A stretch of DNA of 64,000 nt. Origin: Hirudinaria manillensis. Lineage: Eukaryota > Annelida > Clitellata > Hirudinida > Hirudinidae. The stretch is taken from assembly GCA_034509925.1 (NCBI GenBank), contig CM067531.1, forward strand, positions 4,193,501 to 4,257,500, in the 5' to 3' direction. The translations under genes were made by a program, and so were the position numbers. Under the pieces are notes generated by a model. That model saw only the letters and a program-made list of their open reading frames with translations, had not been told where the DNA came from and did not search any database. This document shows, piece by piece, positions 1,655-49,900 of the stretch; the first letter of the stretch is position 1, and every line of letters begins with the position of its first letter.

Positions 1655-4600
1655 TTATGCAGGGTTCGATTGTGGAGCGAGACTGTTGATAGCCAGGGGC
1701 GCACCTATTGCAAGTGAGTCCAACAACTCCAGGCCTGCAAGGACATTGGCCAGTCACTTGGTCACATGACTTGTCCAGCGAACCAACCGGATGACACGTG
1801 CATTCTGTGAATGGAAATCTTAGTAATATTATTTACAACCACAACAACAACAACAACATCGATAAAAAAAATTGATCGATTTACGGAATAAATTTGATAA
1901 ATTAATTGGAAAAACACAAAAAAAAAACAACTAAATCTCGGTGCAGACGTGTTAAGGGAATTAAAGTCGCATAGATTTCAATCAAATTCCACGTCCAGGA
2001 AAGTTGAAGTGTTTATGACCCATTAACATAAATTATTAACGCTATCTATAATAATAAGTTATTGTGATTGTCGTAAACATTGTTATTATTATTTAATTTA
2101 TTATTAATATTGCTATTATTACATTAGTATATATTATTCATGATATGAATTACTATTAATATTTAATATATTGTTAATGATATCAATAACAATAATAACA
2201 ATCAAATAAATAAATAATAGTAATCATCGTAGTCATCGTCATCTGATATTGCCGATAATAAGATTAAACACGTTTAAAAGAGAGCTGTCGGTGACAACAA
2301 CATCGATTCGTAACGATACAACAACAACAATAACACCAACAGCAACAGCAACAACACATCGTAATGTTCTGACCTTTGCAAGCTTTCCTGTGCGTGATTG
2401 GTTTTGTGGCGTCCCTGAAGAAGTTCCTCTTGCAGAGGTGGCAGTGCTTCCCTTCGGTGTTGTGTCTGCACGAGAGGCAGACTCCGCCGGACTTTGATTG
2501 CTTGTAAAGTTCCACGTTGAAACGACATTTCGTCGAGTGTCCGTTGCATTTGCAGGCTTCAAAGGAAATTAAATGCTTTAAATAAATAATTAACCACTCG
2601 ATTTCGTCATATTGGATCATCCGATAAACAAGCACCGATGGACAGGTCGATGTTATGCCGTGTGCTTGTTGTTTTTGTTGCTGTTGTTGTTGTTGTGGAT
2701 GTTGTCGTTGCTGATGTCGTTGCGTAATTGATCAAAAACTAAACATCAAGTTGTTTGTTAAGAAAATAAAAAGTTGAACTTGATTGAATTGACCTGAAGA
2801 TATTCGTTCGTTCATTTCGTGAACATAATTTATTCAAATTATTCACACTTCTCAAAACAATGCATCTTCCTCTAAATCGATTCGCAATGCTCGTCAAGTT
2901 GAACGACTCAACCCGGTGTACTTTTCAACTTTCGCTTTCGTTCTCAGGGGACTACTTTCGGCTCGAAGTGATTGATTGATTGATCGATTAATTCAAATCA
3001 ATCTCATCCACTAATCGCAACTATCCGGACATCCAACTTTCCAGCTCGATAATCGAATCATGTCAGTACGATGGAGTCTGGAAATATGCAAATGAGCTCG
3101 CGGGATGTTAATGACGTGTCCCCGAGGGAGGTCGACACTACTTGACACCTCCCCTCCGATTTTACAGCTCTTTAGTCACGTGATAAGCGGACCACCCAGT
3201 CTGCGTTCGAACCGCGAAGTCTTTAAGTCCCAAAGTGTTGGCAGTGGTTATTGGGCCGGGATTAACCGGTTCTTAAGCCGAAAATGAATGGAAAATCCAA
3301 AAATTACTTCTGAGTTCGAGAGAACTGGTTGCAGATGTTATGACTTTATGTGGCCGTAAATAAGTATAATAAATAAGATAAATAAATGAAATCTAGTCTT
3401 ATTTCTATGAAAATTGAATTTATCGTCCGATTTCTTATTCACGAATTCCTCTTGGTGCATGAAGTTGAATGAAGTGAGGTTATTAAAGAACAGTGGGTCG
3501 AAATAAAAGTTGCTTAAATTAAGTTCGGTTGACTTTCATTGTTTGATTTTAAAAGTTCTTTGAAAATCAACGACCTCAGTGACCCCTCACGTAAACAAAT
3601 TCCTAACCGAGGTCTCCACGCTCGAGAAACAGCCGAAAACTCCGACAAGGAGTGGCACGACCTCACAATAATTGAAAACCATTGAACGACCACCTACCGA
3701 CGCATTCGTTGGCCTCGTGCTGGGTGGCTCTGCTCCACGGTCTGTCGACGTAGAAGGGCTTGCACCGGTCGCAGTCCACTCCGTCGGTGTTGTGCCTGCA
3801 ACGACAAGTCTGCTTCCCGTGTCTGTTGAGGGCGCACTCGGATGCATGGCCGTTGCACTTGCATCTTCCGCCGATGGCTACGTCAGACATGGAAAAGAAT
3901 TGAAACGTTCCTGCCACGGATGCGCCCTGTTGGAATTCCAGTGAGTTTGAAAGAAGTTCCTGCTTGTACGAGTCACTCGAGCGAAAACTTCTCTGTGAAT
4001 TCCTGGAGCTGGAGCGCTTGACGATCAGATCGGAATGGAGGAATGTAGACTTCGGGAGTTTCTTGAGAACGATTCGTATGTCCGTGGCCGTCTGCCAGTC
4101 CTGTAGAACTGAATTCGAGTCAATTTCTGCAGCTGATGGCCTGCCTTCGAGTGTACTGAAGGCTATCCTCGCCTGCTCGGATCCTGCCAAATGGTTTTGT
4201 TGGCTGTAAATCTCGCTGCACAGTGCCTCCTGTTCGTTCATCTTCGAAGCTTGACTTTTGGCCTGCTTGTCAAATGTTTTCCTACAGTCGCTCGAATAAA
4301 ATTGGAATGGTAGCCACGACTTTCCGTAGTCCGAAGATTTGTAAATCGCAAGAGAATCAGGTCTCGTCGAGCAGAACTGAAGACTTATGTAAGTAATTTC
4401 GAACGCTTTCTCAAGATTGAATGTCAACGTCACTTGACTGGAGTTGGAGGAATCAGTATCTTGAGAAAGTTCCTTCTGGAGTGGAGAGGACACCCAGCAG
4501 GAGACGTTGTTGGAGTTGTGGAGGTCGTTGAGATGCTGGACAGGATACGAGGACGATGGATTAGAAGCATCGCAAAGGAAACACGAAACGTGATTTTGAC

Positions 4601-4925
4601 GGTCGAGATGTCGTGGATGTTTACTGGAAGGTTGCTGACGATGTCTACGATGAAGCACCTGCTTTGGATCTCTTCTGTGCTCCGAAAACGAGTCTGAACT
4701 TCTCTTCAGAACGCAGTGCTTCGTGGGAATCATGCCGCAGGTGCTCGTTGATTCCACCTTTCTGCCAAGGGCAGCGTTGACGAATTCCGGGAGACATTTC
4801 CTTGCAGAACCGTCGGAATCGAGGCACGGATCCACGTTCTGATCGGCTGGATCGATAGGTTCACCTCTCGTAAATTGAACGAGTAGACATGTGATCAATA
4901 GAATTTTCTTCGCTGTTTTCATCAT
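1655..4925 (-). CDS. Netrin (UNC-6/netrin-1 type), 3' end incomplete
   Basis: This is a secreted axon-guidance and laminin-related ligand. Three exons join in phase: 4925-3698, 2556-2374 and 1804-1655. The ATG at 4925 begins a signal peptide (about residues 1-21). A laminin N-terminal domain VI follows, with family-typical stretches such as [20 protein letters not shown] and [11 protein letters not shown]. Three laminin-type EGF repeats come next, beginning [16 protein letters not shown] and ECTCHPVG. Relative to netrins, about 28 extra residues rich in Arg and His sit before the [11 protein letters not shown] segment. The last exon ends just after EPCI at a weak donor (gttggt, minus strand). 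The C-terminal NTR domain is not found below 1655; it may lie outside the window or be lost. Netrin is clearly favoured over laminin by the EGF spacing and the ITHRKAC segment. Confidence 0.93.
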
Positions 4926-7900
4926 GTTTCCACCTCAGTAAACTTGGAAAAAATTATTTCAAGTCGACGGCGAATGCAAAATTCTCACTCATAATGCGTA
5001 CAAGATAATCCAGGAGGTGAAAAAATTCGCGAGGTTGAGGCATCTCATTTATATAGCGCACAGTCCTTACGGAAGGCCGTGCTGGCGTCCTTTTGAAATG
5101 AAAAATCTCTGAAAGAAATGAAACGATTTAGTTGATAATTCTAAAGAGCACTTCGCAAAGCAGCTTCAGAGATAATCCTCGTTAATCCCGCGAACGAGTC
5201 AGCGCTATTTGAGCCGCCTATCACTGGCACATTGTAAGTGAGTGTTTATATGTGTGCATGTCTGTTTCTGAGCTTATCACTAGACACCTCTCCCGTCATT
5301 GTTATCACCTTCCCTTAATCATTCTGGATTATCACACATTGTAAGCAGGGCAAGCATTTATAATCCATTACATTTATCATTAATGATAATTCATGAAAAG
5401 GATGCTACAGTTGACGTTCATTAAAATCGATTAAAAACGATTTGGAAAAAAATGAAAATGAAGAAAAATAAAACGCGAGGCGAGTTGAATGACAATTGGC
5501 TCGTCATACTAACAAAACTTTCTTTCTTCTCTGTCAGCGACCAGCAAATAAACTTTAATCATGACTTAAACCAAGTTTTTTTTTTTGTAAATTAAAATTC
5601 AACGGAATTAATAAAACGATCAGAAAGTTGGCATTTCAATTTGCATATATAGTCTAATATAACAAGTTATGCGTTCATATTAAAGCAGAACGTCTGATGC
5701 GGATCTGCGTGTCTCTCATCTGCATTTATACGAGATGAGTTTGCATGGAAAACACACCCACTTCCATCTGGCCGATGGAAAATCAAATTGACGACATGGA
5801 ATGTATAATTCAATTGCCAAAAAAAATCTTTTTCTGAATCACGAGGGTGACTCAGCACGTGGTCACAACGATGAAGTAATGGTTTTTCCTTTAAATGAAA
5901 ATAAAAGGAAATGCTGTGCATTCGATTTCAATCTCCTCGTGTTGCGCAAACTTTAGTACCGATTGGCCTGAAGCTAACTTGAGTAATTCGAGACAACATT
6001 CCTGCAAGATTCGAAGACTTAACTTTAAATCCTCAGTCACGGGCGAGCAACAAGGAAATCTTGAGCGAGGAAACAAAAGAACTTCATTCTATTGTAATGA
6101 AATTGCTCTGAACATTCTTTTGATGCTACAACGACTTTCGTAATTAATTTTTCTTGCATAACCATTTATTATGGTTACTACAATTACGATTAATTTACTG
6201 ACTTTGAAACTCAATGAGATCTTGTCAAAGGCTGACCTCAAACTTAAGAGGTCAAAACAACATTGGCTTATGTCGGGATCTTGCTAGGATTTAGAATTGG
6301 AGCGAAACATGAAGGACCAAGTTTAAATTTTTCAAACAAAGAGAATAATCACATTTGTGGATATCTTAAAATGACGGTAATAATGAATTAATCAAAAAGG
6401 TTTAATCGCTTTGTTATCCTAATGGCGATTTTTTTTATATTTTTGTCAAACCGTCATTAAATTCGTCCTTAAATAGTTAAATTGAATAGTTTCTGAATAT
6501 TTCTCCCGGTGACTTTGATCGAATTTATGGGATAATCAACAATGTCACTCAATTTGTTTAAATAAGTATTATTTATTATTATTTATAGTATTATTATAAT
6601 TAAAATACAAATACTCATGGTATTAAAAATCTAAGAAAGCTGTACTGATTTTGAATTGTTATAGAGCTACTTATCATTCCTTTAAATGTATGAGCATTAG
6701 GATATTCATTCAATACAGGGTGGTTCATTTTTATTATTACTGATAATAGGCGTTATCTAAATAATTTTAAAAACCAGCGGATTTAAATGTGGGTTATTCT
6801 AAGGAAGATACGGACAGCTAATTAAAATCCATTTGACAAATTCGAATTTATCAATAGTGATCACTGTGCTGGCGTTGAGTCAAAAGACAATAAATCTTCA
6901 ATGTAAATAACAACAATCTCCAAAAATCTTATGACACAAACATTGTTTTTATATGCTTATTTGTGAACATATAAAATATACATGTTTAAGAATTGTTCAA
7001 TAAATACACTCTCGAAACAATTTACAACCCCGCGAATAAAAAGAACATGATTAATGTTCGGGGCTCAAAAATTGCCTCTTCCAGTTGTCATCCAAAATAT
7101 TTTTTGTAGATATTGGTCAAAGACACTGCAATATTTACTAATAAATATATATATAAATTAATAAACAGTCTAATAAAAAAAAATTACACATTGATGCTTT
7201 GCCATCATATGGCTTTAGTTATCAAAGACCTGAGCTTCTGCTTGCCGAGATTCATTTATCGTCACTTTCTGGGGTTATCCACTAGCTGTTTTTGTTCCAT
7301 CCAAAGTCAGAAGCTTTTAAATAATTCCGGATGACAGTTTTGAATCCAATGAGCTCTTTCTCCGAGCTAATAATTTGCTTTCTCAACTCTGAACTCTAGC
7401 AATTGACCAAATCATCAAATCGTCGATAGAACAATTTTGTATAGGAACGCATTTTTATACGTTTGTTGACTATTATTATTTGTTTTTAAATATTCATTTG
7501 ATTTTTAAAATGATAAAATATATTCAACTCAAACGGCCATGCTGTGCTCATTAAAAATATTTTGCTTGTGCGGGTGTTCTTTTGGTCGTTAGGATATTTT
7601 AACATTTTTGTTTCGTATTATTTTGTGAAGGTGAGGATCTTTTTACAAATAAAGATGAGTGTCCTTATATATTTTTATGAATTTATAAAATTGCAACTTA
7701 AACGATCTGGGCACCGATTTGGTCGATTTGAACGATGATTTTTGCATTCTAGATTGTGGATTGATTTATGCACTGCCCTTTTCTTGCTAAAGATAAATCA
7801 AAATAGTTAAGTTGAAGGCAACGATTATTGTTATTATTGTTATTATTAAGCCGGCGTTAAATAACTATTTGAAAGTTATTAATTTGGATTTTTACATCCA

Positions 7901-12698: not shown

Positions 12699-13774
12699 GA
12701 TTCGAAATTTATTATTTAATTTCAAAGTAACAGCAAAATTTAAATGATTAAAACGAGTAAAGCTAAGCTCGACTGGCGAGAAATCGCAAAGAAAACAGCA
12801 GTTTCGTGATTGACCTTCATCAAATGAAACTGTTGATCTCTGCATCTCTTCAGGATATTCCACTGGATCAGATGAACTTGTATTTTTGATTCGAAATTTA
12901 CAAGGTTACAGCAAAATTTAAAAGATGAAAACGAGTAAAGCTAAGCTCGACTGGCGAGAAATCGCAAAGAAAACAGCAGTTTTGTGATTGACCTTCACCA
13001 AATGAAACTGTTGATCTCTGCATCTCTTCAGGATTTTCCACTGGATCAGATGAACTTGTATTTTTGATTCGAAATTTACAAGGTTACAGCAAAATTTAAA
13101 AGATTAAAACGAGTAAAGCTAAGCTCGACTGGCGAGAAATCGCAAAGAAAACAGCAGTTTTGTGATTGACCTTCATCAAATGAAACTGTTGATCTCTGCA
13201 TCTCTTAAGGATATTCCACTGGATCAGATGAACTTGTATTTTTGATTCGAAATTTACAAGGTAACAGCAAAATTTAAATGATTAAAACGAGTAAAGCTAA
13301 GCTCGACTGGCGAGAAATCGCAAAGAAAACAGCAGTTTCGTGATTGACCTTCATCAAATGAAACTGTTGATCTCTGCATCTCTTCAGGATATTCCACTGG
13401 ATCAGATGAACTTGTATTTTTGATTCGAAATTTACAAGGTAACAGCAAAATTTAAAAGATTAAAACGAGTAAAACTAAGCTCGACTGGCGAGAAATCGCA
13501 AAGAAAACAGCAGTTTCGTGATTGACCTTCATCAAATGAAACTGTTGATCTCTGCATCTCTTCAGGATTTTCCAATGGATCAGATGAACTTGTATTTTTG
13601 ATTCGAAATTTACAAGGTAACAGCAAAATTTAAAAGATTAAAACGAGTAAAGCTAAGCTCGACTGGCGAGAAATCGCAAAGAAAACAGCAGTTTCATGAT
13701 TGACCTTCATCAAATGAAACTGTTGATCTCTGCATCTCTTCAGGATTTTCCACTGGATCAGATGAACTTGTATT
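12699..13774. repeat. 178-bp tandem repeat, six copies
   Basis: The word GATTCGAAATTTA starts copies at 12699, 12888, 13066, 13244, 13422 and 13600. Spacing is exactly 178 bp after the first copy, whose period is 189 because of an ATTATTTAATTTC variant. The copies differ by only a few substitutions (for example ATATTCC/ATTTTCC and TTTCGTG/TTTTGTG). The array stops in the middle of a unit at 13774. The minus strand of each copy is open for about 60 codons, but 178 is not a multiple of three, so no long protein results. Confidence 0.95.
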
Positions 13775-15053
13775 TAATATCCATCCAGTGAAAATCCTTA
13801 GAGGCCAAAGAGGTGCGGCCTCAGCGGCAGTCAAGGAATCCGGCGACCGTTGAAGCGGCGTCCATTTGGAGCAACCGCTCCCTCGTCATTTTTATATTTC
13901 AACAAATCTCCACGGACTTTGAGTAGACACGTCAGCTTCACAATGTCATATGAACATCTCTTATGAACATTCAAAAGAAGGGTACATTTGCATATCAAGG
14001 AAGTCCTTGATTTGATGCAGGGCCAATATTGATGTACCATAACAGAAAAAGGAAAATACTCAGGTCCAGATTCTTAACCTACCATTGAAATCTTTACTCA
14101 TCAAGCATTGATTTAGGCTCGTCCCAAAATCATGTAACATTATAAAGTAACATATATACATAAATCATCCAATTTTTAAAACGTTTGAAGTAGAAATTCA
14201 TCATGCCTCAAGAAGTTCAAAGCTAATGTCTATCACTAGGACTAATGGAACCAAAACCTTGGATTATTTGGCACTTGCAAAATTATTTTTAAAAATTCCT
14301 TCATTATTAGCCTGAATGACACAAAAATTAAAAACAGCAAAAAGTAACCCCTCTTAAAAGAAACTCCTTCTTGTAATCGTTATATAAGCTGATGAGTTTG
14401 TCTTTCACTGTTTCATCATAATTTCTACTTTTTGTCCATCAATGAAGATCTGATGATACAATACAATTTTCCTTAAACAGTTTCAGATTATTCAAAATGT
14501 AATGATGTGTTGTGGCATTAAACAAGGCACTTTTCTTAACATTACAAGTTCTGTTTATAACAAGTACATCCATGTTGACTATTATGTTGCTGTTCACCAA
14601 ATATCACATCTTACCTCCACACTTCCAATGCAATTTTATAACTCTTTTTATGATGTGAATTGAAGAGGTTATAATCCATATAAGGTGCTCGATAATCCGT
14701 GATGTAATGCAGCTGTTAGCAAATTATTTGCTAAAATTTGTGTTCAAAATGATGACATCATTATCATCATCATCATCATCATCTAACCTTATCCATTTCT
14801 TTCCTGTACATAATTTGAGCTTCAACAATAGAAGTTATATTATCTGCTTCTATTGTAGCCTTTGTTTGAATAGCAATTAACAAAACAATATCAATAAACC
14901 GACTTATTTTATCAATTTGTTAATAAAAACAGTAATCACCTTCATGAAAATGAAAGCTTCAGGCTCTGGAATGATTTACAGAATTATCTAAGTTTTTCTT
15001 ACCTGGAAGCACGTACTGTCGTACTATCGGCAAGAGCGTTTTTGTATATAAAT
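13775..15053. other. No supported gene
   Basis: AT-rich DNA with a short ATC trinucleotide run near 14760-14785. I see no exon, RNA gene or repeat border that can be defended. One short minus-strand ORF (13831-14040) has no similarity that I recognise. Confidence 0.4.
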
Positions 15054-21598: not shown

Positions 21599-22630
21599 TT
21601 AAGTCTTTCGTTGTTGTCCGGGCTGTTGTTGTTGTTGCCCTGGTTGCACTGGTTGTTGTTGTTGACCAGGTTGTTTCTGACCTTGTTGCTGCTGGCCAGG
21701 TTGAGGCTGTTGTTGACCAGGCTGTTGCTGTGGCTGATTTTTCTGTTGTCCAGACTGTTGCTGCTGTTGTTGCTGCTGCTGCTGCTGCTGAAGTTGTTGC
21801 TGCTGTTGTTGAAGTTGTTGCTGCTGTTGTTGAAGTTGTTGCTGCTGCTGTTGTTGTTGAAGTTGTTGCTGTTGTTGTTGCTGCTGTTGTTGTTGTTGAA
21901 GTTGTTGCTGTTGTTGTTGCTGCTGTTGTTGTTGAAGTTGTTGCTGCTGTTGTCCAGGTTGTTGTTGTCCGGGCTGCTTCTGATCTGGTTGTTGTTGACC
22001 AGGTTGTTGCTGCTGTTGTTGACCTGGCTGTTGCTGTCCAGGCTGTTGTTGCTGTTGTCCAGGTTGTTGCTGCTGTTGTTGGCCTGGCTGTTGCTGTCCA
22101 GGCTGTTGTTGCTGTTGTCCAGGTTGTTGTTGACCAGGTTGTTGCTGCTGTTGTTGGCCTGGCTGTTGCTGTCCAGGCTGTTGTTGCTGTTGTCCAGGTT
22201 GTTGTTGTCCGGGCTGCTTCTGATCTGGTTGTTGTTGACCAGGTTGTTGCTGCTGTTGTTGGCCTGGTTGTTGTTGACCAGGTTGTTGCTGCTGTTGTTG
22301 ACCTGGCTGTTGCTGTCCAGGCTGTTGTTGCTGTTGTCCAGGTTGTTGTTGTCCGGGCTGCTTCTGATCTGGTTGTTGTTGACCAGGTTGTTGCTGCTGT
22401 TGTTGGCCTGGTTGTTGTTGACCAGGTTGTTGCTGCTGTTGTTGACCTGGCTGTTGCTGTCCAGGCTGTTGTTGCTGTTGTCCAGGTTGTTGTTGCTGTT
22501 GTCCAGGTTGTTGTTGACCAGGTTGTTGCTGCTGTTGTTGACCAGGCAGTTTCTGATCCGGTTGCTGCTGTCCAGGTTGTGATTGACCGGGTTGTTGCTG
22601 ATTTTGTTGTTGATCTGCTTGAGGGACCAT
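21599..22630 (-). repeat. Coding Gln/Pro/Gly repeats of the last exon
   Basis: The exon reads as alternating PGQQQ and PGQQQQQ blocks, interrupted by PDQK spacers, with a nearly pure Gln stretch broken by single Leu residues (about 21770-21945). A larger unit carrying PDQKQPGQQQ recurs at offsets of 144 bp (22197 to 22341) and 240 bp (21957 to 22197). Both are multiples of three, so the duplications keep the frame. The composition suggests an extended, disordered, Gln-rich segment. It would lie on the luminal or extracellular side if the type II topology holds. Confidence 0.9.
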
Positions 22631-25600
22631 TTTTTGAGTGGTTATTGATTGTTGAGCCTTTGCTGCTTGTTGTTGTCGTTGTTCATTTTCCTTTTGTTGA
22701 CTTTCCCTTTCCTTTTTAAAATAAGTTGAGCAGGATTATATAGGATAATTACAACTAATAATACTAATTACTATATAATAATGTAACGTAATATAATAAT
22801 AATAATAATACTCAAGAGGGGTGCGTTTGTATTGACAAAAATAATAATAAATAAATAATAAAATATAATATAATTAGATAATAATATTAAAATCGTTGCA
22901 ATCGTGGAACATGTTTCCATGGAAGTTTTTCGATGCTTACCTGCTGCTCCCTCTGTTGACGTTCTTTTTCCTAATTACGAATTTAATTTATTGAATATTA
23001 AACATTTTCTAAACTTTTTCATAAAATTATTATATAATATTTTTTTCATAAAAATGAAATATTTTATAAAGTAAAAACACTTTATTGATCATTTAAGGTA
23101 ATCCTGCAAAGCATTGCTTTGTTAATAACGACACCAACAATGATGATCTGATAATGATAATGTAATAAATATAATATCGATAATAAATTATGTAATTACG
23201 TACGTAATGTAGCTAGAAATATTTTTATAATTTTAACGGAAGATTATAACATTAATTAATAACATTCATAATTAACTACTTTCCTTAAATGCTTATCTAC
23301 GATTACTAATCGGTTAAATAAATTTGTGCAATTTATTAATAATTAATGATATTAATTGAAATAAAAACTTAATTGGCTTAAAAATAAAGATAAAATCTGA
23401 AAAAGGTGATAAAGTAATTGATGTAAACAATGCAAAATGACTTCAAATGATCACCTGCTGTTCCTTTTGTTGACGTTCTCGTTCCTTAATTGAGAATTTA
23501 ATTTAAATAATTAATAGAAATTAATTTATTTAATTATTTTAACAATTGTTATTTACTTTTCACATTTGTTGTTAAATTTTTTATATAAATAAATATATGT
23601 ATATTTTTAATATAATATATATATTTATGTTTAATATTTCTATGGTGAGTTTTTCCACCTGGAAATTATTAAATAATAGATAAATAAATAAATAAATACT
23701 TAATAATAATAATATTAATTAATTAGTTACCTGCTGCTCCTTTTGCTGCTTTTCACGTTCCTGAATTGAGAACAGGAAGTGGTTTTTATTTGCAATAATT
23801 ATTTTATCATTTAATTTACTGGGTTTAATTAATATGCAAATGCAGGACATTACAAGGCTTGGTCAGTTAATTAGCATAATATTATAATTAATATTATTGC
23901 GTCGTTATCATTAGGCACAATTAAAATTAAATTAACATTTAAAACAAGAGACATTGTTATTCATGGAAATTTGTAATACATATTTTTAAATTGCATAATT
24001 TATTCAAGTAATTACTTGCTGTTCTCTTTGTTGACGGTCTCTTTCCTGGTTGAAAATTTAATTTATTCAAATGTAATTATAACGAGCCATTTATATATAC
24101 TACGTCGTCAGAGCTAAAAAAATAGCTTAGCTGCTGTTATAAAAATAATTTACATATGTAAACAATGAATAATAAATTATTTATTTATGTAACCAATTAA
24201 GTTACTTCCAGAACGAATTCATTTACAATGGTTACCTGCTGCTCTTTTTGTTGACGTTCGCGTTCCTAAATTTAAGACTTTTTTATGATTTTCATAATAA
24301 TGATCCAATAAATGATAGTAACAAATATTTAAATGTTCGTAGTAATAATAATAATAATGATAATATTAATTATTATTTTTTAGTTTTATAAATAACAGAA
24401 TAATATTAATATTGAAATGTTCCTACAATAATAATAATAATATTAATTATTATTTTTTAGTATTATAATTAACAGTAACAGAATATTATAATAATTTTAC
24501 AAAAAGGCAGAATAAGTATATAGAATTTGCACGCCAAAAGCGTCCTCGGAGCGCTATATAAATGGCTAAAGAGAATCGCCTTAAGCATTTAGACTGGAGA
24601 ACGCATGTAAGAATCACCAATTTATTTTCATGTTATTTAATAAAAAGAATTAATTGTTTATTGAAATATAATATAATAGAAAATAATAAAACAAAAATTA
24701 ACAATAAATAGGGTAAAATATATAACTAATATTTTTTATTCAAATCGAATTTATTCATGGAATTTAAGTGTAAAATACCTGTTGCTCTTTCTGCTGACGA
24801 TCCCGTTCCTGGTGGTAAATTGTCATTGATATTTAATTATTTTAATTAATTAAAAACATAATTGTAATTAATTATTACAAAATTAATTTAAAAAATTATG
24901 CGATTAAGACCCGTTTTTATTTATTATTTATTAATCCTATTCAATTTACAAAAAAATGATCAAAAATTGGGAAATTCATTTCATTGTTGACATTACAACA
25001 TATTTCGCGGTGTCTATGGTAATAAGATTTAGAATAACGATTTGTAATTATTATATTTTACGTTTTTAAGAAATAATAATTGGAAATAATTCCAGCATCG
25101 CAATATTTAAATATAATTACCTGCTGTTCCTTTTGTTGACGTTCCCTTTCCTAAAAGTAGTTGACAATAAATTGATTTTAATTTATAATGTTTATTAATC
25201 ACTTAATTTTAATTAATACGAATAAAATAATTAATTATTACAATTGATTCTTTAGCATAATTAATTATTAATAATAATTTAATTATTTAATTTAATTTAC
25301 TAATATGTTGTTATCGGTGAAGTCGTTTGAATAAATAGCTGACTCATGTATATTCTTAATTTTCAAGATAATAATATTTTATAATAAAAATAATAGTCGT
25401 GCCAGTGGAACATGATTCCGTGAAAGTTTTTAAATGTTTACCTGCTGCTCCCTCTGTTGACGTTCTCGTTCCTGATTATAAATTTGATTTATTCAAAACA
25501 AAAGATTGTAATAATAATAATAACAATAATAATAATAAATAATAATAATAATAATAATAATAGTAATAATTGGAAATAATTCCAGCATCGCAATATTGAA

Positions 25601-32013: not shown

Positions 32014-35000
32014 CTAACCAGATTGTTTACTTTTTGAAACCTTCAGAAGATTTCTCCAGCTCTTCCTTAGCTTACTTCCCCTAGACACGTCACCATTGGT
32101 GAACTGATTGAAAGGTATGCTCGCAGAACAGGTGTCAACCATAGAGGAACGTTCTATGGTGGACCTGGCAGAGGAAATGAGGTGCCTTTTCGAATTATTC
32201 ACCGACATCGAACGAGGACAGTCATCAGTCTTGATATCGCAGTCCGAGTAGGGATTGCTGGACCTGAAAGTCGGTGTCGAAATCAGGGGAGTGTTGGTAC
32301 CGCTGTGAGAGTTTCTTTTCGAACTCTTCAGGATCAGTTGCAAATCGTCCGACAAACTTGCGCTCGAATGGAGAGGTGAAGCGACTTCCGAGAACTTTCT
32401 TTGTGAATCGCTGAAGTAAATGTTGCACTGACCTTTAACCTTATTTTCGAGCATGGAAAACGTTGGCCTAGCGGAAGCTCGGTATCTCCAACACTGCTGC
32501 ATGATTGAAAACATGAAAGTTTCACATTCTGCGGGTTTTCCCAGCCGCCCTTTCTCGACGATGTGAATGGCCGCTTCCTGTTCGCTCAAGTGGCTGTAAG
32601 GGAGTTGCCCTTGGCTGAACAATTCCCAAAACACCACCGCCAAAGACCACACGTCGGATTTCGTACTGTACTGACAATCTCTGAGCACTTCGGGCGACGA
32701 CCACCTGATCGGAACCTCTTCGCTGCTACAAGCCGAATAACAGTCATCGTCCACCCTTCTTGCTCGCTCGAAATTGAAAAGTTTGACGGCGTAATTTGCA
32801 GAAATGAGGAAATTGCTTGCAGAGAGATTACGGTGAAGAATGAAGTGTTGTCGTTCGAGATGCACCATGGCAGAGATCATCTGAACGCACATGTCAAAGT
32901 ACGTGTCACTCTTGTCAGAAAGGAATCCATTAATCAAGGAGTCTTTCAGCGTGCCCATACCGAAGTTTTCGGTGACGATAAAAAACGGGCGACTTCTGAA
33001 GCAAACGCCGACGAGCTTGATGATGTTCTCGTGAAATGTGTTCATCAAAATGAGAGCCTCGTTCAAGAAGTCGTCGTCTTCCTCGACCAGCGAATCATTC
33101 TGCAACGCCTTTACAAAGACCTGTTGTTGACCGTAACTACCAAGACACGTGAGACCGAACTTTCCCTCGCTAATTATTTTCCCGTATAGTCTGATGGATT
33201 TTCTCAACAACTCGTAATTTGCAGGATAATGGTGGCCCGGGATAATTGGCATCCTCGATTCTTTGAGAGGTCTCCTCAGGCGAGCTATTAAACTGCTCTT
33301 GTTTCTACGGAAATACTGGACCAAGTCAGATAGCGTTAGGAAGCTCCTATCGTGTCCTTCAATCATTACGTCGCCGCAGTAATTCTCTGTTATTGGATAA
33401 TGGACGATTTCTCCCAATTCACCGGATAGACTTAGAAAGTAGAAGCATTTCACAATCTCCTGGTCGTTGTTGAAATCCGACGATTGGTAAACAAGAAAAC
33501 ATCCTTTTTGCTTCTCCTGTCTTAAGAAAAGCGTGGCTTCTTTCGTGGTTAGGGGAACAGGATAGAACCATGGTTCACCCGTTGGATCGCCGTATTTTTT
33601 CAAGTGTTCAAAGTTAATGTAATAAGCGGAGCCTTCTCGATCGTAGCAAATTCTAGAACCTTTGTATGCCCCTAATTTCGATTTCTGACTCTCGTCCACG
33701 TACTCGTTGTGTGAAGAACATTCGCATTTACAAGCTGGAAAATAGTCGCACATGAGAAGAGTGCCTGCCATCAAAATCTTTTGTTCCGAATCCAAATAAG
33801 AGGCGCCAGTTCGTCCGTCTGGTTCATCCGAGCGAGGATCCAAATAATGACTAGAATGGTCGTTCATAAGATCGATGTCTTCGTAGTACGACGGCTCCGT
33901 CATTCCCGGATGCTTGCTGCCCTGTTCTGGGCACTGGTTTTCGATGGCCTCTGGTATCAAAGTATCCAAATCTTCGGCGGTGTCTGTACCGCAGAAGGGA
34001 GAGTCGTGCAGACTGTGAGAGACGACGGAGTCCACACCCGAGTCTCTGGTCTTCACGGTCGTACTCACACCAGACGACGACCTGCTGACGGAAACGTCCG
34101 AGCAGCCGGGTTGGTCCAGTAATTCGTCTGTGGCTATGTTCACGGGGTTTACGGTCGATTCTTCGCTTGGAGCGCAATTTTCACTCTTTGCTTCTCCGAC
34201 TTTCCCCTCTTCTTGAGTTACTTGAGTCGTGCTCTCTGGGATATTTTCGTCATTGTGGTCATTTTGGTCATTTTGAGAATAAATATTCTGATTTTTAATA
34301 AAAGTTTCTCTTTCTTTGTCTTCATTCGCTGCATTCTGATCGATTGCTTCGTAGGGCCCTTCGACGTTGCCTTCGGGTTCAATGAAGTAACTGAGGGAAA
34401 TGTTATCATCGTCCATGCCGTCGTCTACCTCGTAGTTGGAGAATGCTTTGGGGTAACTCGATATTCGGACCATGTTCAGAGGTTCAATATCCCTGAATGC
34501 AGGATTGAGAACGGGAAGAACTGGCGGAGGTTTCAAGTTTGTTTCAAATCGTTGTCTCGCTGGAATCGGTGGAGGATTAGCGACGGTTGAATGATTGTTG
34601 GAACTAGATAAGTCTGCTTCTATTTTCAGTAAGGTTTCCTCTGTCAATCTTTCTTGAAGCTTCATTCGAGGCAGGGGAGACAGAGAATCTGGCTTAGGTG
34701 GCAAAGGTGGAGGGGTCTGAATGTGTTGGATTTTTAAAATGTCTTCGTTGTTCGATAAATCAGTCCTGTAAGACAGTCTGAGCGTCGATGCATGGAAGGC
34801 GTCGACGTTTCTGGCCAGTTTTGCCACCGAAAATGCCTCGTTGCTTCTTTCGTCTGGCACATAAGCGTGAGTACAACTGACTGGATTTTTAACAAGATCT
34901 GGAATATCAGTTGTCTTGATCATTTTGAAGAGAACGTCGCTCGTCAGAACAGCCATGAAAAGATCGTCATCATCATCCAAAGAGTTTCTGATCTTTCGTC

Positions 35001-35580
35001 GCTTGTCGTGTTTTATCCACGGTTTTTCGTGCGCCTTACCGCGAGAAGCAACCACCTGGCACGTCACGTAACCGCTTGAGTCCGCAGCTTCGGAATCTAG
35101 AAGGCCGTTTGGCAAGTAATCGTCAAAAAGTCTGTTGTTGATCTGATATTTTTGACGTTTTAGAAGCTCTCTTACGGCATGACCAGTCATGGTAGCTCTC
35201 TCACCGTACAACATTTCTTCGTCCAACAACTCTTCTTCTTCCTCCTCACTCTCCAGAGTCTTCATGGCTTGGTCGAGTACACTGTGGACTCCCCTGTTGT
35301 GTTCTTTCAGAACGTCCATGAATTGATCGAAGGAGCGTCGGTCGCTTTGTTCGAGATTGTCGAGGAAATGAATCAAGCGTTCGACCTTACGATCTGCTTC
35401 CTGACTCTCAGCTTTGAAGACGACTGGATGTCTAGACAGAAACGAGTGACTGCAGAGAATCTCAGGATTGAGTGACTTCAGCAAGAAATCCCTGCACTGC
35501 GAAAGAACTCGAGAATGTGCAGTCTTGAAACACTTTTCAGACTTTTCTTCCAGTAATCTATTCTTTCCGGATGATTTCAT
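32014..35580 (-). CDS. CARD, degenerate SH2 and tyrosine pseudokinase protein
   Basis: One uninterrupted ORF of 1188 codons from an ATG at 35580. Residues about 19-107 read as a CARD death-fold: an amphipathic helix, then RKVERLIHFLDNL and FDQFMDVLKEHN, the typical CARD helix 3-5 pattern. An acidic stretch follows, then a long disordered region with SH3-type proline motifs (PPPLPPKP at 290-297, PPPIPAR at 336-342) and possible phosphotyrosine sites (GPYEAID, YYEDIDLM, HYLDP, NEYVDE). The SH2 domain (about 669-768) has WFYPVPL, GCFLVYQSS and IVHYPI; the conserved FLVR Arg is Tyr698. The kinase-like domain (about 797-1050) keeps beta-3 Lys824, helix-C Glu841, SPE and DVWSLAVVFWE, but HRD is HRN (Asn918) and DFG is NFE (936-938). 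The likely role is a signalling scaffold. Known families do not supply a name. Confidence 0.9.
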   Translation of the reverse strand: MKSSGKNRLLEEKSEKCFKTAHSRVLSQCRDFLLKSLNPEILCSHSFLSRHPVVFKAESQEADRKVERLIHFLDNLEQSDRRSFDQFMDVLKEHNRGVHSVLDQAMKTLESEEEEEELLDEEMLYGERATMTGHAVRELLKRQKYQINNRLFDDYLPNGLLDSEAADSSGYVTCQVVASRGKAHEKPWIKHDKRRKIRNSLDDDDDLFMAVLTSDVLFKMIKTTDIPDLVKNPVSCTHAYVPDERSNEAFSVAKLARNVDAFHASTLRLSYRTDLSNNEDILKIQHIQTPPPLPPKPDSLSPLPRMKLQERLTEETLLKIEADLSSSNNHSTVANPPPIPARQRFETNLKPPPVLPVLNPAFRDIEPLNMVRISSYPKAFSNYEVDDGMDDDNISLSYFIEPEGNVEGPYEAIDQNAANEDKERETFIKNQNIYSQNDQNDHNDENIPESTTQVTQEEGKVGEAKSENCAPSEESTVNPVNIATDELLDQPGCSDVSVSRSSSGVSTTVKTRDSGVDSVVSHSLHDSPFCGTDTAEDLDTLIPEAIENQCPEQGSKHPGMTEPSYYEDIDLMNDHSSHYLDPRSDEPDGRTGASYLDSEQKILMAGTLLMCDYFPACKCECSSHNEYVDESQKSKLGAYKGSRICYDREGSAYYINFEHLKKYGDPTGEPWFYPVPLTTKEATLFLRQEKQKGCFLVYQSSDFNNDQEIVKCFYFLSLSGELGEIVHYPITENYCGDVMIEGHDRSFLTLSDLVQYFRRNKSSLIARLRRPLKESRMPIIPGHHYPANYELLRKSIRLYGKIISEGKFGLTCLGSYGQQQVFVKALQNDSLVEEDDDFLNEALILMNTFHENIIKLVGVCFRSRPFFIVTENFGMGTLKDSLINGFLSDKSDTYFDMCVQMISAMVHLERQHFILHRNLSASNFLISANYAVKLFNFERARRVDDDCYSACSSEEVPIRWSSPEVLRDCQYSTKSDVWSLAVVFWELFSQGQLPYSHLSEQEAAIHIVEKGRLGKPAECETFMFSIMQQCWRYRASARPTFSMLENKVKGQCNIYFSDSQRKFSEVASPLHSSASLSDDLQLILKSSKRNSHSGTNTPLISTPTFRSSNPYSDCDIKTDDCPRSMSVNNSKRHLISSARSTIERSSMVDTCSASIPFNQFTNGDVSRGSKLRKSWRNLLKVSKSKQSG
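33277..33576 (-). other. SH2 domain lacking the phosphotyrosine-binding Arg
   Basis: This segment encodes the SH2 fold of the pseudokinase protein. Order is preserved: W at the start, FLV strand B, YFLSL strand C, IVHYPI strand D, and FLTLSDLVQYF helix B. The Arg of FLVR, which binds the phosphate in nearly all SH2 domains, is encoded TAC (Tyr) at 33489-33487. Ordinary phosphotyrosine binding is therefore not expected. Confidence 0.88.
35260..35526 (-). other. CARD-like death-fold domain
   Basis: Residues about 19-107 of the pseudokinase protein. The strongest pattern is a Lys/Arg start (RKVERL), then LxxLxxxDxxxFDxFMxxLxExN, as in the CARDs of RAIDD or caspase-type adaptors. The acidic EEEEEE run after it marks the domain end. 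Another death-fold subfamily is possible; a structure prediction would decide. Confidence 0.75.
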
Positions 35581-36199
35581 ATCTGGAATGAATGAAGTTT
35601 AAGATAAAATTTAATCCTAAAAGACGCATTATAAATTTAAACGAATAAACAACAACCCATATCGTAAAACAAAGCCCAAGGTTCCAAAGAACAAAGAACT
35701 TGTTAACAAAGAAGGCCAGCAACAGCGAATCCATTAGCGATCGATAATATAGATTCTATTTAAAATCGGCAATTTCTTTAATTATTAATCAGGTGATCGT
35801 TACTTTTACTATTCCTTGACAACGATGATGTTTCAACAGGAGAAAACAACTTTTGACCAGCTGTCAATTGACGATGCATGAGCCACAAATTAAAGCAATT
35901 ACAATAATTGCACAACAAAGCACTTTTTACGTCAACATTACAATAAACCTCGATGCTATTCATGAGAAAAGCATTTCGTTTTTATCAAAAATTCGGTAAA
36001 AAAAATTACAAATGTAGTGTTCAAATTTAAAAAAAAAATATTGAATAGAAGCGATATGATATGTTGGAATGGGATACGAGTGAGTGGGAATGACCAGGTT
36101 AGGAATGCTGGAAGTTATTAACTCAAAAGTTAATCATCAGCTTCAAGTGGTGGCTCCAAAGCGAAGCAGCGGCGTCGTGACAGACACATCAAAGCGAGG
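35581..36199. promoter_or_regulatory. 5' region of the pseudokinase gene
   Basis: On minus, the sequence TTCATTCCAG stands two bases before the ATG at 35580, so the start codon probably lies at the beginning of a second exon and an untranslated first exon lies further upstream (higher coordinates). The region is AT-rich with no other coding signal. Confidence 0.4.
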
Positions 36200-36568
36200 A
36201 GAGTGAGTGAGTGAGTGAGTGAGTGAGTGAGTGAGTGAGTGAGTGAGTGAGTGAGTGAGTGAGTGAGTGAGTGAGTGAGTGAGTGAGTGAGTGAGTGAGT
36301 GAGTGAGTGAGTGAGTGAGTGAGTGAGTGAGTGAGTGAGTGAGTGAGTGAGTGAGTGAGTGAGTGAGTGAGTGAGTGAGTGAGTGAGTGAGTGAGTGAGT
36401 GAGTGAGTGAGTGAGTGAGTGAGTGAGTGAGTGAGTGAGTGAGTGAGTGAGTGAGTGAGTGAGTGAGTGAGTGAGTGAGTGAGTGAGTGAGTGAGTGAGT
36501 GAGTGAGTGAGTGAGTGAGTGAGTGAGTGAGTGAGTGAGTGAGTGAGTGAGTGAGTGAGTGAGTGAGT
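36200..36568. repeat. GAGT tetranucleotide satellite, about 92 copies
   Basis: About 369 bases of uninterrupted GAGT (minus strand ACTC). The two long minus-strand ORFs reading SLTH repeats are only translations of this satellite. It lies 0.6 kb upstream of the pseudokinase start codon. Confidence 0.98.
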
Positions 36569-46956: not shown

Positions 46957-49900
46957 GGTCTGATTTGAGTAGCAAGTTAAAAGTAGCATACATACATACC
47001 TGTGATCAGCGCAGCAATTTCTATAAATTAAAAATTAATTTCTATAAATTAAAAACAATAATTCCTACAAATTATAAATGTAACAATCTACAAATAGGCC
47101 AAGAGGAACCAAGAGATCTGCACTCCTGCAAAGAACTGAGAAACTGCGACCAAAATGCCGACTGTGTCTTCAACAGCCACGAAATGCGACATGTTTGTGT
47201 CTGCAGGAGAGGATTCCAAGGTCAGTCTGCAAAGCATTTGTTGACGAGAATTGTCTGAAATTATCCTCAATTAATAATTAAATCAATTTAATTAATCTTT
47301 AATGTTTGTTTATTTTGTATTTTTGTTATCATTGTTGTCATTGTTGTCATCGTCGTATCAGGCGACGGATATCTTTGCATCTACGACGGTTACGTGGACG
47401 ACAACGACTGCTCGCGCAACCCCAACCTGTGCCACCCGGACGCCACTTGCGGTCCGAGCGCGCACACGGGCAGGTACGAGTGCGCGTGCAGGGAAGGTTA
47501 CCACGGAGACGGAAGGCATTGCCAGTCCATTGGTGAGTTTTGTGGTCGTTTCCTTTGTGGTTGCACACTCGTAGTTGTTGATTGTTTCTTTTGAGTGATT
47601 TGTTAACAATAATTTATTTGTTTATTTATTTATTTGTTTGTTTATTTATTTATTTAGTGGAAGGTGTTTTATGGAAAAGCAGATTTTAAAATTATTTTAC
47701 AGCACTTCAAATTAAATGCACATTTTATCATTTTCCTTTGAGTATCACATAATGGTAATGGGTTAATTATTGGTTTAAATAATTAATAAATTACCATTTT
47801 TAACCGGAGAAGTATCAAATTAAAATTCCAATGCCTTCAAATCAGAGTTTTATTATTATTTAATTTAATTTTTAATAAACTAATTAGGCATTTCTTCGAA
47901 AAACTTATTCAGATTGCAGTCAAGATCCGAGAATCTGTCACGAGAACGCGAGGTGCGAGAGGAGGTTCGAATCTTTTGCTTGCGTCTGCAACCCGGGTTT
48001 TGATGGGGACGGGATGCACTCCTGCACGAGTGAGATCTTTGGGCGGAATTCTTTTTAAACATGATTTATGTTGTAATTAATTGTAATTGCAAACAATTTT
48101 TTAAGTAAATTAATAAATATTCAATTGAACCAAGAAAAATTGACTTCAGTAAATATTTTTTAAAGTAAAACTTTTAGAATTCTTCCACCATTTAATGATA
48201 CCTGCAAATTACCTGGAATGATTTAAGTCATTAAAGTGTTATGTTCTCTGCTGACATCTCTCATAATTAAACAACTTGCACCAAATTAGCAACACAAGCA
48301 GAATTATTTATAATTGCAAATATTAAATCCTGAGCAATGAATTGCTTAAAGCAAGGTTGACCTCAGCTCGAAATAAATACAAGATGCTCGCAACATGAGC
48401 CAATGTGAGAATAGGTCATCAAAAAGATGCTACATGTTGCCATGAAAACACATTCATATGTAATCTAATGCTGCAACAATATCATTGCACTGAACCTAAC
48501 CCTGAAAACTCTTCCATTTCCTTCTAGTTGCTGTGCCAGGCGAGCACGGAGAAGGGGAGTTGGTGTACGCCCAAGCCATGTTCGTCGGAAAAGCAGGGTT
48601 GAGACAATCAAACTCCCACGGGGCTGGGAAATTAATAAGTTATGATTTAGGTGAGTGCATCCATCACTTATGATGTTTTTTGGGGAAAAAACTATTTTGG
48701 AGCGTTTCAACTTATTTATTAAGCCCAGAGACATAAGTTATGAATTAACTTGACTCGGTGAGATTAAGCCCGAAGCTTGTGGTGATAGTTAGAGTTCATT
48801 TGGTACGCTTTTAATGGCTAGGTTTTCCTGTGTATCTAGCAATGGCAATGAGGTTTAGAGAGAGCTCTGTGAATGTTCTCATAAACTCAAGTTTTAAAGA
48901 TTTAAAGATGAAAAGTTTTATAAAAATAAGTGCATGGAGACATAATGGGCTTAGAATTTAAACTTAAAAAAGAAACAAACTTATACAAACTGTTTTGGAA
49001 AAACCGGTCGCATTGTGACTTAAATAACTTAAGCCATAGGATCGTGCAACATGCATTGTTGCAATGTTTATAGTTTTTAAAAGGGAATTTAATAGTTTAA
49101 ATAAATAAATAAATTAATTAATAAACTTTAACAGGACAATTGGCCGTCGCAGTCGACGTGGATTGCTCCTCGCACGAAGTATTTTGGACGGACATTGTGA
49201 CGAAAACGATCAAAGCATCCAACTTGGATGGTTCCAATTCGAGAACTTTGGTTTCGAGTGAGACTTCATTCTGTCGTTTCATTTCTTCGATGGATCGATC
49301 TTCGACTTCCAGGAGATTCCAGAGGAATAATAATAATAATATTATTATTATTGTTGTTGTTGTAAATGATGCCAGAATTGCATCGAGTAAACACACCCCG
49401 AATATCATTCATTTGCACAAAATGGTCTTAAGAAATTATTTATGGGCTCTGACAAATCATCCTAAAAAAAACGCAATTCAAATTTCAGATCTCGGCTCAC
49501 CAGAGGGAGTCGCAGTGGATTGGATCGCCAGGAACTTGTACTGGACCGACTCTGGATACGACAAGATCCAGGTTTCGAAGCTCGACGGGAGTCACGTCAA
49601 AACGCTGTTCTCGAAGAACCTGACGAATCCGAGGAGCATTGTCGTCGATCCGATAAGGGGGTGGAGCTTTTGGATTTTGAGTCGCTTGTTTATTTCTGAT
49701 TAGTTTCCGAATTTAAAATGATTAAACGATTAAATGTATTTTATTTGCTGCTATTTATGACTCTGTTATCGATGATAAATTCTTTTTGGATAATTCTTTT
49801 GATTCTTAATGGAGATGGATTAGAAGTGGAGAAATGCTTGAAATCATTGTTGTTGTTTGATAATTATTCAATAATTATTAATTTTATTATTATTTGTGAA

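Follow-up and report, generated by a model that had tools for sequence, protein, structure and literature searches.

Several described proteins combine some of the domains considered here. In RIPK2, a RIP kinase without an SH2 domain, a kinase shares its chain with a C-terminal CARD, and CARD assembly could cluster the kinases. JAKs (FERM-SH2-pseudokinase-kinase) place a pseudokinase after an SH2 domain, the Tec (BTK), Abl, Src and Csk kinases have an SH2 domain followed directly by a tyrosine kinase domain, and CARD9 and CARD11 carry an N-terminal CARD. In vertebrates, CARD-CC proteins act with BCL10-MALT1 downstream of SH2 tyrosine kinases, one of which, ZAP70, signals to CARD-11 through PKC, and CARD-CC and Syk are found only in lineages with Bcl10, according to one study (PMC5978004). 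Here, we describe a gene of the leech Hirudinaria manillensis that encodes a CARD, an SH2 domain and a tyrosine pseudokinase in one chain, and the family to which it belongs. The gene lies in a 64 kb stretch of contig CM067531.1 (assembly GCA_034509925.1), positions 4193501–4257500, hereafter the window. Such a chain offers a natural shortcut for studying how death-fold assembly and tyrosine phosphorylation are coupled.

One leech gene joins a CARD, an SH2 domain and a tyrosine pseudokinase

The gene occupies positions 32014–35580 of the window on the minus strand as a single exon, an open frame of 1188 codons without interruption, and its 1188-residue product (P0001) has the order CARD, disordered linker, SH2 domain, tyrosine pseudokinase. 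A relative, P0002, is 86% identical overall at 100% query coverage; by part, identity is 92% in the C-terminal tail, 91% in the pseudokinase, 87% in the SH2 domain and 82% in the CARD. A full-length AlphaFold2 model from a 34-row alignment (mean predicted local distance difference test score (pLDDT) 60.8, predicted template modelling score 0.52) is confident at about residues 20–50, 61–115, 211–245, 601–775 (with dips) and 776–1050, and disordered at 253–597 and after 1058. Helices are modelled at 96–125 and 133–148, followed mostly by disorder to residue 597, except for a segment at 205–245.

For the CARD (residues 19–116; 35233–35526, minus strand), the Pfam model (PF00619) gave no match in P0001 up to E 10, and its curated cut-off was not reached. 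A CARD profile built from 15 relatives, with P0001–P0004 excluded, was applied to 14 family proteins alongside 500 shuffled sequences; it matched P0001 at E 1.6e-15, while the best shuffle scored 0.11. Scores within the inclusion threshold were obtained for P0119, P0001, P0002 (1.2e-14), P0003 (1.2e-8) and P0004 (2.5e-6); the other nine proteins fell short of it, and the five inspected over their first 300 residues seem to start downstream of the CARD. Against the PDB, a nine-row profile that included the leech sequence found the CARDs of caspase-9 (E 8.9e-11), APAF-1, CARD9 (5e-6), CED-3, NOD1 and CARD11 (8.4e-5), the nearest being caspase-9, APAF-1 and CARD9, with RIPK2 CARDs appearing only at E 0.12–0.13. 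The predicted model of residues 1–262 resembles CARDs in structure comparison and has, with a broken helix 1, the six-helix death fold on which the original prediction had made its fusion claim depend. Judged from sequence and model, the N terminus of P0001 is a real CARD by homology, because the profile of CARD-bearing relatives matches it and 14 of 23 scanned family proteins pass the Pfam cut-off. No other CARD-like sequence was found in the six frames of the window; elsewhere in the leech genome there are five CARD exons, none of which belongs to the window gene.

The Pfam SH2 model (PF00017) matched residues 676–757 with E 6e-4 and 20.3 bits, 0.7 bits under the cut-off of 21, and a phmmer search of the PDB aligned residues 646–1047 with the SH2-kinase part of BTK (E 3.1e-60), the best match by sequence. 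Homology of the SH2 domain (residues 669–775; 33256–33576, minus strand) is thus established at the sequence level through the relatives and BTK. The pseudokinase (residues 795–1056; 32413–33198, minus strand) is identified both by profile (PF07714, E 5.4e-60) and by fold. Structure comparison of the full-length model showed only kinase chains, and Abl, Src and Csk were the nearest by fold with Foldseek. Profile searches proposed with the original prediction recovered the kinase outright, narrowly missed the SH2 domain, and found the CARD only with the family profile. The claim that all three domains share one chain is borne out by the single open frame, the family profiles and the BTK alignment.

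P0001 differs from each of the systems named above. Unlike RIPK2, its CARD is N-terminal, an SH2 domain precedes the kinase and the kinase is nearest to tyrosine kinases. Unlike the JAKs, it has one kinase domain and no FERM match up to E 10. Unlike CARD9 and CARD11, it carries a kinase-like domain itself and has no MAGUK-type Pfam match. Whereas the Tec, Abl, Src and Csk kinases share its SH2-kinase order, the leech protein and its relatives have an N-terminal CARD, a long disordered linker, no convincing SH3 domain, an SH2 domain that has lost its FLVR arginine and a kinase that is often degenerate. The original prediction knew of no family with this architecture, and the literature searched, the coverage of which was limited, gave us no account of a chain with CARD, SH2 domain and tyrosine kinase, so that the statement of novelty is weak. 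From the sequences, we would describe the domains of the family as known and their conserved combination as new, with two losses that are out of the ordinary.

Distribution of the family and its leech paralogues

Three protein searches, which were word-seeded and incomplete (P0007, found in the first, was missed in the second), yielded at least 43 further family proteins (P0002–P0009 and P0106–P0140). Another 96 matches of the first search were set aside as generic kinases because of their coverage and domain content. Two members alone carry species names, P0108 from Paralvinella palmiformis and P0140 from Owenia fusiformis, both annelids and both labelled simply ‘Tyrosine-protein kinase’ in UniRef; the original prediction had proposed a search for the architecture in other invertebrates, and these two carry it. 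No named member outside Annelida was among the proteins found, but as the searches were incomplete and most members have no species name, restriction to annelids is not proved. When 23 of the 44 family proteins were scanned, Pfam cut-offs were passed by the CARD in 14, the SH2 domain in 10 and the kinase in 22, and by all three in seven (P0106–P0109, P0123, P0125 and P0140). Owenia P0140 thus carries both CARD and SH2 domain; its top PDB match was the EGFR kinase, followed by BTK and ABL1 over SH2 domain and kinase.

A tree of kinase domains from 46 rows set the family apart: its 30 rows, among them two leech paralogues, split from the 16 rows of other tyrosine kinases with support of 100/100; the tree held no Src or Tec rows, and the JAK-type rows P0014 and P0017 fell outside the family clade. 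The leech genome (148.4 Mb in 23 contigs), whose one hirudin-family match (E 5.8e-6) is partial and interrupted by a stop, was also searched for copies. Scoring of 39 of the 216 candidates gave 38 places, three of which align over SH2 domain and kinase together, while the remaining 35 are partial matches that lie at residue 760 or beyond. These three are the window gene and two further single-exon SH2-pseudokinase paralogues on long branches, L022 (2831–6010, plus strand) and L023 (3581–5854, plus strand). No CARD exon was found beside either paralogue in the surrounding 9.0 and 8.5 kb, respectively. An active sister copy was sought and was not among the 38 places, all three SH2-kinase copies being degenerate.

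The SH2 domain lacks the FLVR arginine in every aligned row

An alignment of 46 rows (44 proteins plus L022 and L023) revealed that the strand-B arginine of the FLVR motif is missing in every row, replaced by Tyr in 45 and Phe in one; in P0001, the residue is Tyr698 (33487–33489, minus strand). The strand-D His and Tyr are kept in all 46. At the helix-A arginine position Arg occurs in no row, although 37 of 46 rows have R or K in the next column, which leaves this position open to doubt over the register. Replacement of the strand-B arginine has parallels in TYK2, RIN2 and SH2D5, whose SH2 domains lack it too. With the FLVR arginine gone from all rows, the family SH2 domain is probably no normal phosphotyrosine reader, and yet it is well conserved despite having lost its hallmark residue. 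The loss is shared by Owenia, an early branch among annelids, and thus probably dates far back.

A probable passage from active kinase to pseudokinase

In P0001, HRN replaces HRD (residues 916–918; 32827–32835, minus strand) and NFE replaces DFG (residues 936–938; 32767–32775, minus strand), so that by the family alignment both the catalytic and the metal-binding Asp have become Asn, whereas Lys824 and Glu841 are kept. The pseudokinase seen by the original prediction holds for the three leech copies found but not for the family as a whole: among the 37 rows with a complete domain, 24 are intact, with the Lys of VAIK and the Asp of both HRD and DFG in place, and 13 are degenerate. The remaining nine of the 46 rows were left out of this count, being broken off or ending before the catalytic loop. 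Six proteins (P0114, P0116, P0119, P0120, P0131 and P0132) have no letters at the catalytic-loop columns, and the inspected ends of P0114, P0119 and P0120 no longer follow the family beyond ‘(C/S)(I/V)QV’, which may mark an intron not present in leeches. Of the 37 complete rows, 35 retain Y948, the tyrosine of the activation loop.

On the best tree, computed with the catalytic columns masked and with Owenia as outgroup, the catalytic state changes five times (four to five in bootstrap trees). L022, L023 and P0009 sit on long branches, and their positions are uncertain. Six rows (P0001–P0004, P0006 and P0129), all degenerate, form a clade with support of 97/96, which argues that the degenerate state is old. 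Owenia P0140 retains intact catalytic residues, so an intact kinase is likely to be ancestral; since 24 of the 37 complete rows keep the Lys and both Asp residues, the leech pseudokinase is probably derived and the family probably one of CARD-SH2-kinases with repeated loss of catalysis. It provides a series of enzyme-to-pseudoenzyme states.

Conserved motifs in the linker and the segment before the SH2 domain

The original prediction had pointed to proline motifs and to YxxI and YxDP sites between the domains, and these were found again and are conserved in most rows. The proline motif PPPLPPKPD (residues 290–298; 34687–34713, minus strand), which we take to be SH3-ligand-like, belongs to a type present somewhere in the protein in 41 of 46 rows. 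The two best-kept tyrosines of the disordered linker are Y566, in YYEDI (residues 565–569; 33874–33888, minus strand), present in 45 of 46 rows, and Y579, in YLDP (residues 579–582; 33835–33846, minus strand), present in 41 of the 42 rows that have a letter there. Other linker tyrosine columns are less well kept (Y565 32/46, Y398 14/28, Y410 4/6, the remainder three or fewer). Counting matches at any place in the protein, 43 of 46 rows have a YE.I motif (the exceptions being P0136, Owenia P0140 and L023) and 38 a YL.P motif. Sites of the pYEEI type suit Src-family SH2 domains and pYxxP suits the Crk SH2 domain.

Two further segments are at least partly structured in the model. The first, a conserved middle segment (residues 165–245; 34846–35088, minus strand), has C174, W188 and P233 invariant in a 20-row alignment, and its pLDDT at 211–240 is 86–90 in the full-length model versus 59–84 when folded without the C-terminal part. 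The second, immediately before the SH2 domain (residues 596–668; 33577–33795, minus strand), is modelled as β-strands with pLDDT 56–92 over 601–670 and is possibly a degenerate SH3 domain: Foldseek aligns SH3-SH2-kinase chains to the model over, for example, 467–479 columns, and the phmmer alignment with BTK extends into the end of its SH3 domain. Pfam gave no match on three pre-SH2 fragments, and a PDB search with a profile of eight such fragments returned five sequences up to E 10, none an SH3 chain, the best being an antifreeze protein (E 0.045). Comparison of the segment with five SH3 domains by hhalign gave a probability of 1%. An SH3 domain split between residues 208–242 and 600–665 was also considered.

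Possible functions

We lean, tentatively, towards a CARD-driven scaffold that in many members is still a kinase. The CARD would let the protein join or nucleate CARD assemblies. CARD partners are likely to be present in annelids, because Bcl10 and a Bcl10-dependent MALT1-like paracaspase have been reported there, though leeches are not named (PMC5978004). Where the kinase is intact, packing on a CARD assembly could bring kinases together, leading to mutual phosphorylation and to phosphorylation of the conserved linker tyrosines; in members that have them, the YE.I and YL.P sites, once phosphorylated, and the PPPLPPKP motif might then recruit other SH2 and SH3 proteins, while the arginine-less SH2 domain would hold the kinase as a structural clamp. 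Leeches would have given up the enzyme step, leaving a CARD-driven scaffold whose linker tyrosines would have to be phosphorylated by another kinase. The corresponding history, which we hold a little more loosely, is that an annelid CARD-tyrosine kinase fusion arose before the Owenia split and let polymerization switch phosphorylation, with the SH2 domain turning ancestrally from reader to clamp and, in leeches, the whole family turning from enzyme to scaffold.

Several observations weigh against this reading. The well-supported branches of the tree force one change of catalytic state, not five. Owenia P0140 has none of the three linker motifs (YE.I, YL.P and proline), so that the docking part of this reading is either not ancestral or was lost there, and the assignment of motifs to partners draws on the general preferences of SH2 and SH3 domains. 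The leech CARD is divergent, being missed by Pfam and containing a low-confidence loop at 51–60. Finally, several database rows have no CARD in the predicted sequence and, with none found in the flanks of L022 and L023 either, CARD and kinase are not always together.

It is doubtful, though the most plausible of the alternatives, that the CARD serves for intramolecular or homotypic oligomerization in a tyrosine kinase of development or the cytoskeleton, unrelated to apoptosis or immunity. Oligomerization of CARDs is known from many settings, the closest matches of the SH2-kinase part are BTK, Abl, Src and Csk, a group with frequent roles in adhesion and the cytoskeleton, and the linker motifs would presumably suit Src and Crk partners. 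The closest CARDs by profile, however, are of the apoptosome and CARD9/CARD11 types, though a profile match shows no partner.

A less probable explanation is the hub of the original prediction, in which the SH2 domain would recognize phosphotyrosine on receptors or adaptors, with the CARD relaying the signal. The SH2 fold and the invariant strand-D His-Tyr would suit such a role, and a register shift could turn the basic residue found one column late in most rows into the helix-A arginine; the absence of the FLVR arginine from the whole alignment speaks against the SH2 domain as a phosphotyrosine reader, a role that is not supported.

That the leech copy is a decaying gene, its kinase dead through relaxed selection, seems very unlikely. 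Loss of both the HRD and DFG Asp would fit, as would the long-branched and equally degenerate L022 and L023, but the frame is open over all 1188 codons and the degenerate clade is well supported. The pseudokinase, moreover, is the best-kept folded part of P0001 relative to P0002 (above the CARD and the overall figure), and so does not look like a decaying part of the protein. A fusion created by assembly or gene modelling is refuted by the single exon in the genome and by the same domain order in separate contigs and independent sequences, the named Paralvinella and Owenia proteins included, with nothing found in its favour.

Other features of the gene and window

Beyond the pseudokinase, P0001 ends in a Ser-rich disordered tail (residues 1057–1188; 32017–32412, minus strand; pLDDT about 25–39 from 1061 on) with a basic C terminus, RKSWRNLLK; an RKS or RKG motif is found there in nine of nine rows of one family alignment. 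At the other end of the gene, the sequence cattccag (35583–35590, minus strand), two bases before the ATG, reads as a possible 3′ splice site and would suggest a non-coding 5′ exon upstream. A perfect array of 92 copies of the tetranucleotide GAGT (36201–36568) lies 0.6 kb upstream of the gene start.

Elsewhere in the window, a 178 bp tandem repeat (12718–13775) has 5.9 copies with 97% matches, and a glutamine-rich repetitive long open frame (21599–22735, minus strand) runs over tandem repeats. A netrin- or laminin-like gene is represented by an exon (3663–4934, minus strand) that encodes laminin EGF and Laminin_N domains (the latter with E 2.2e-57), and an LRP-like gene by one with LDL-receptor class B repeats (E 2.2e-24; 49125–49703, plus strand).

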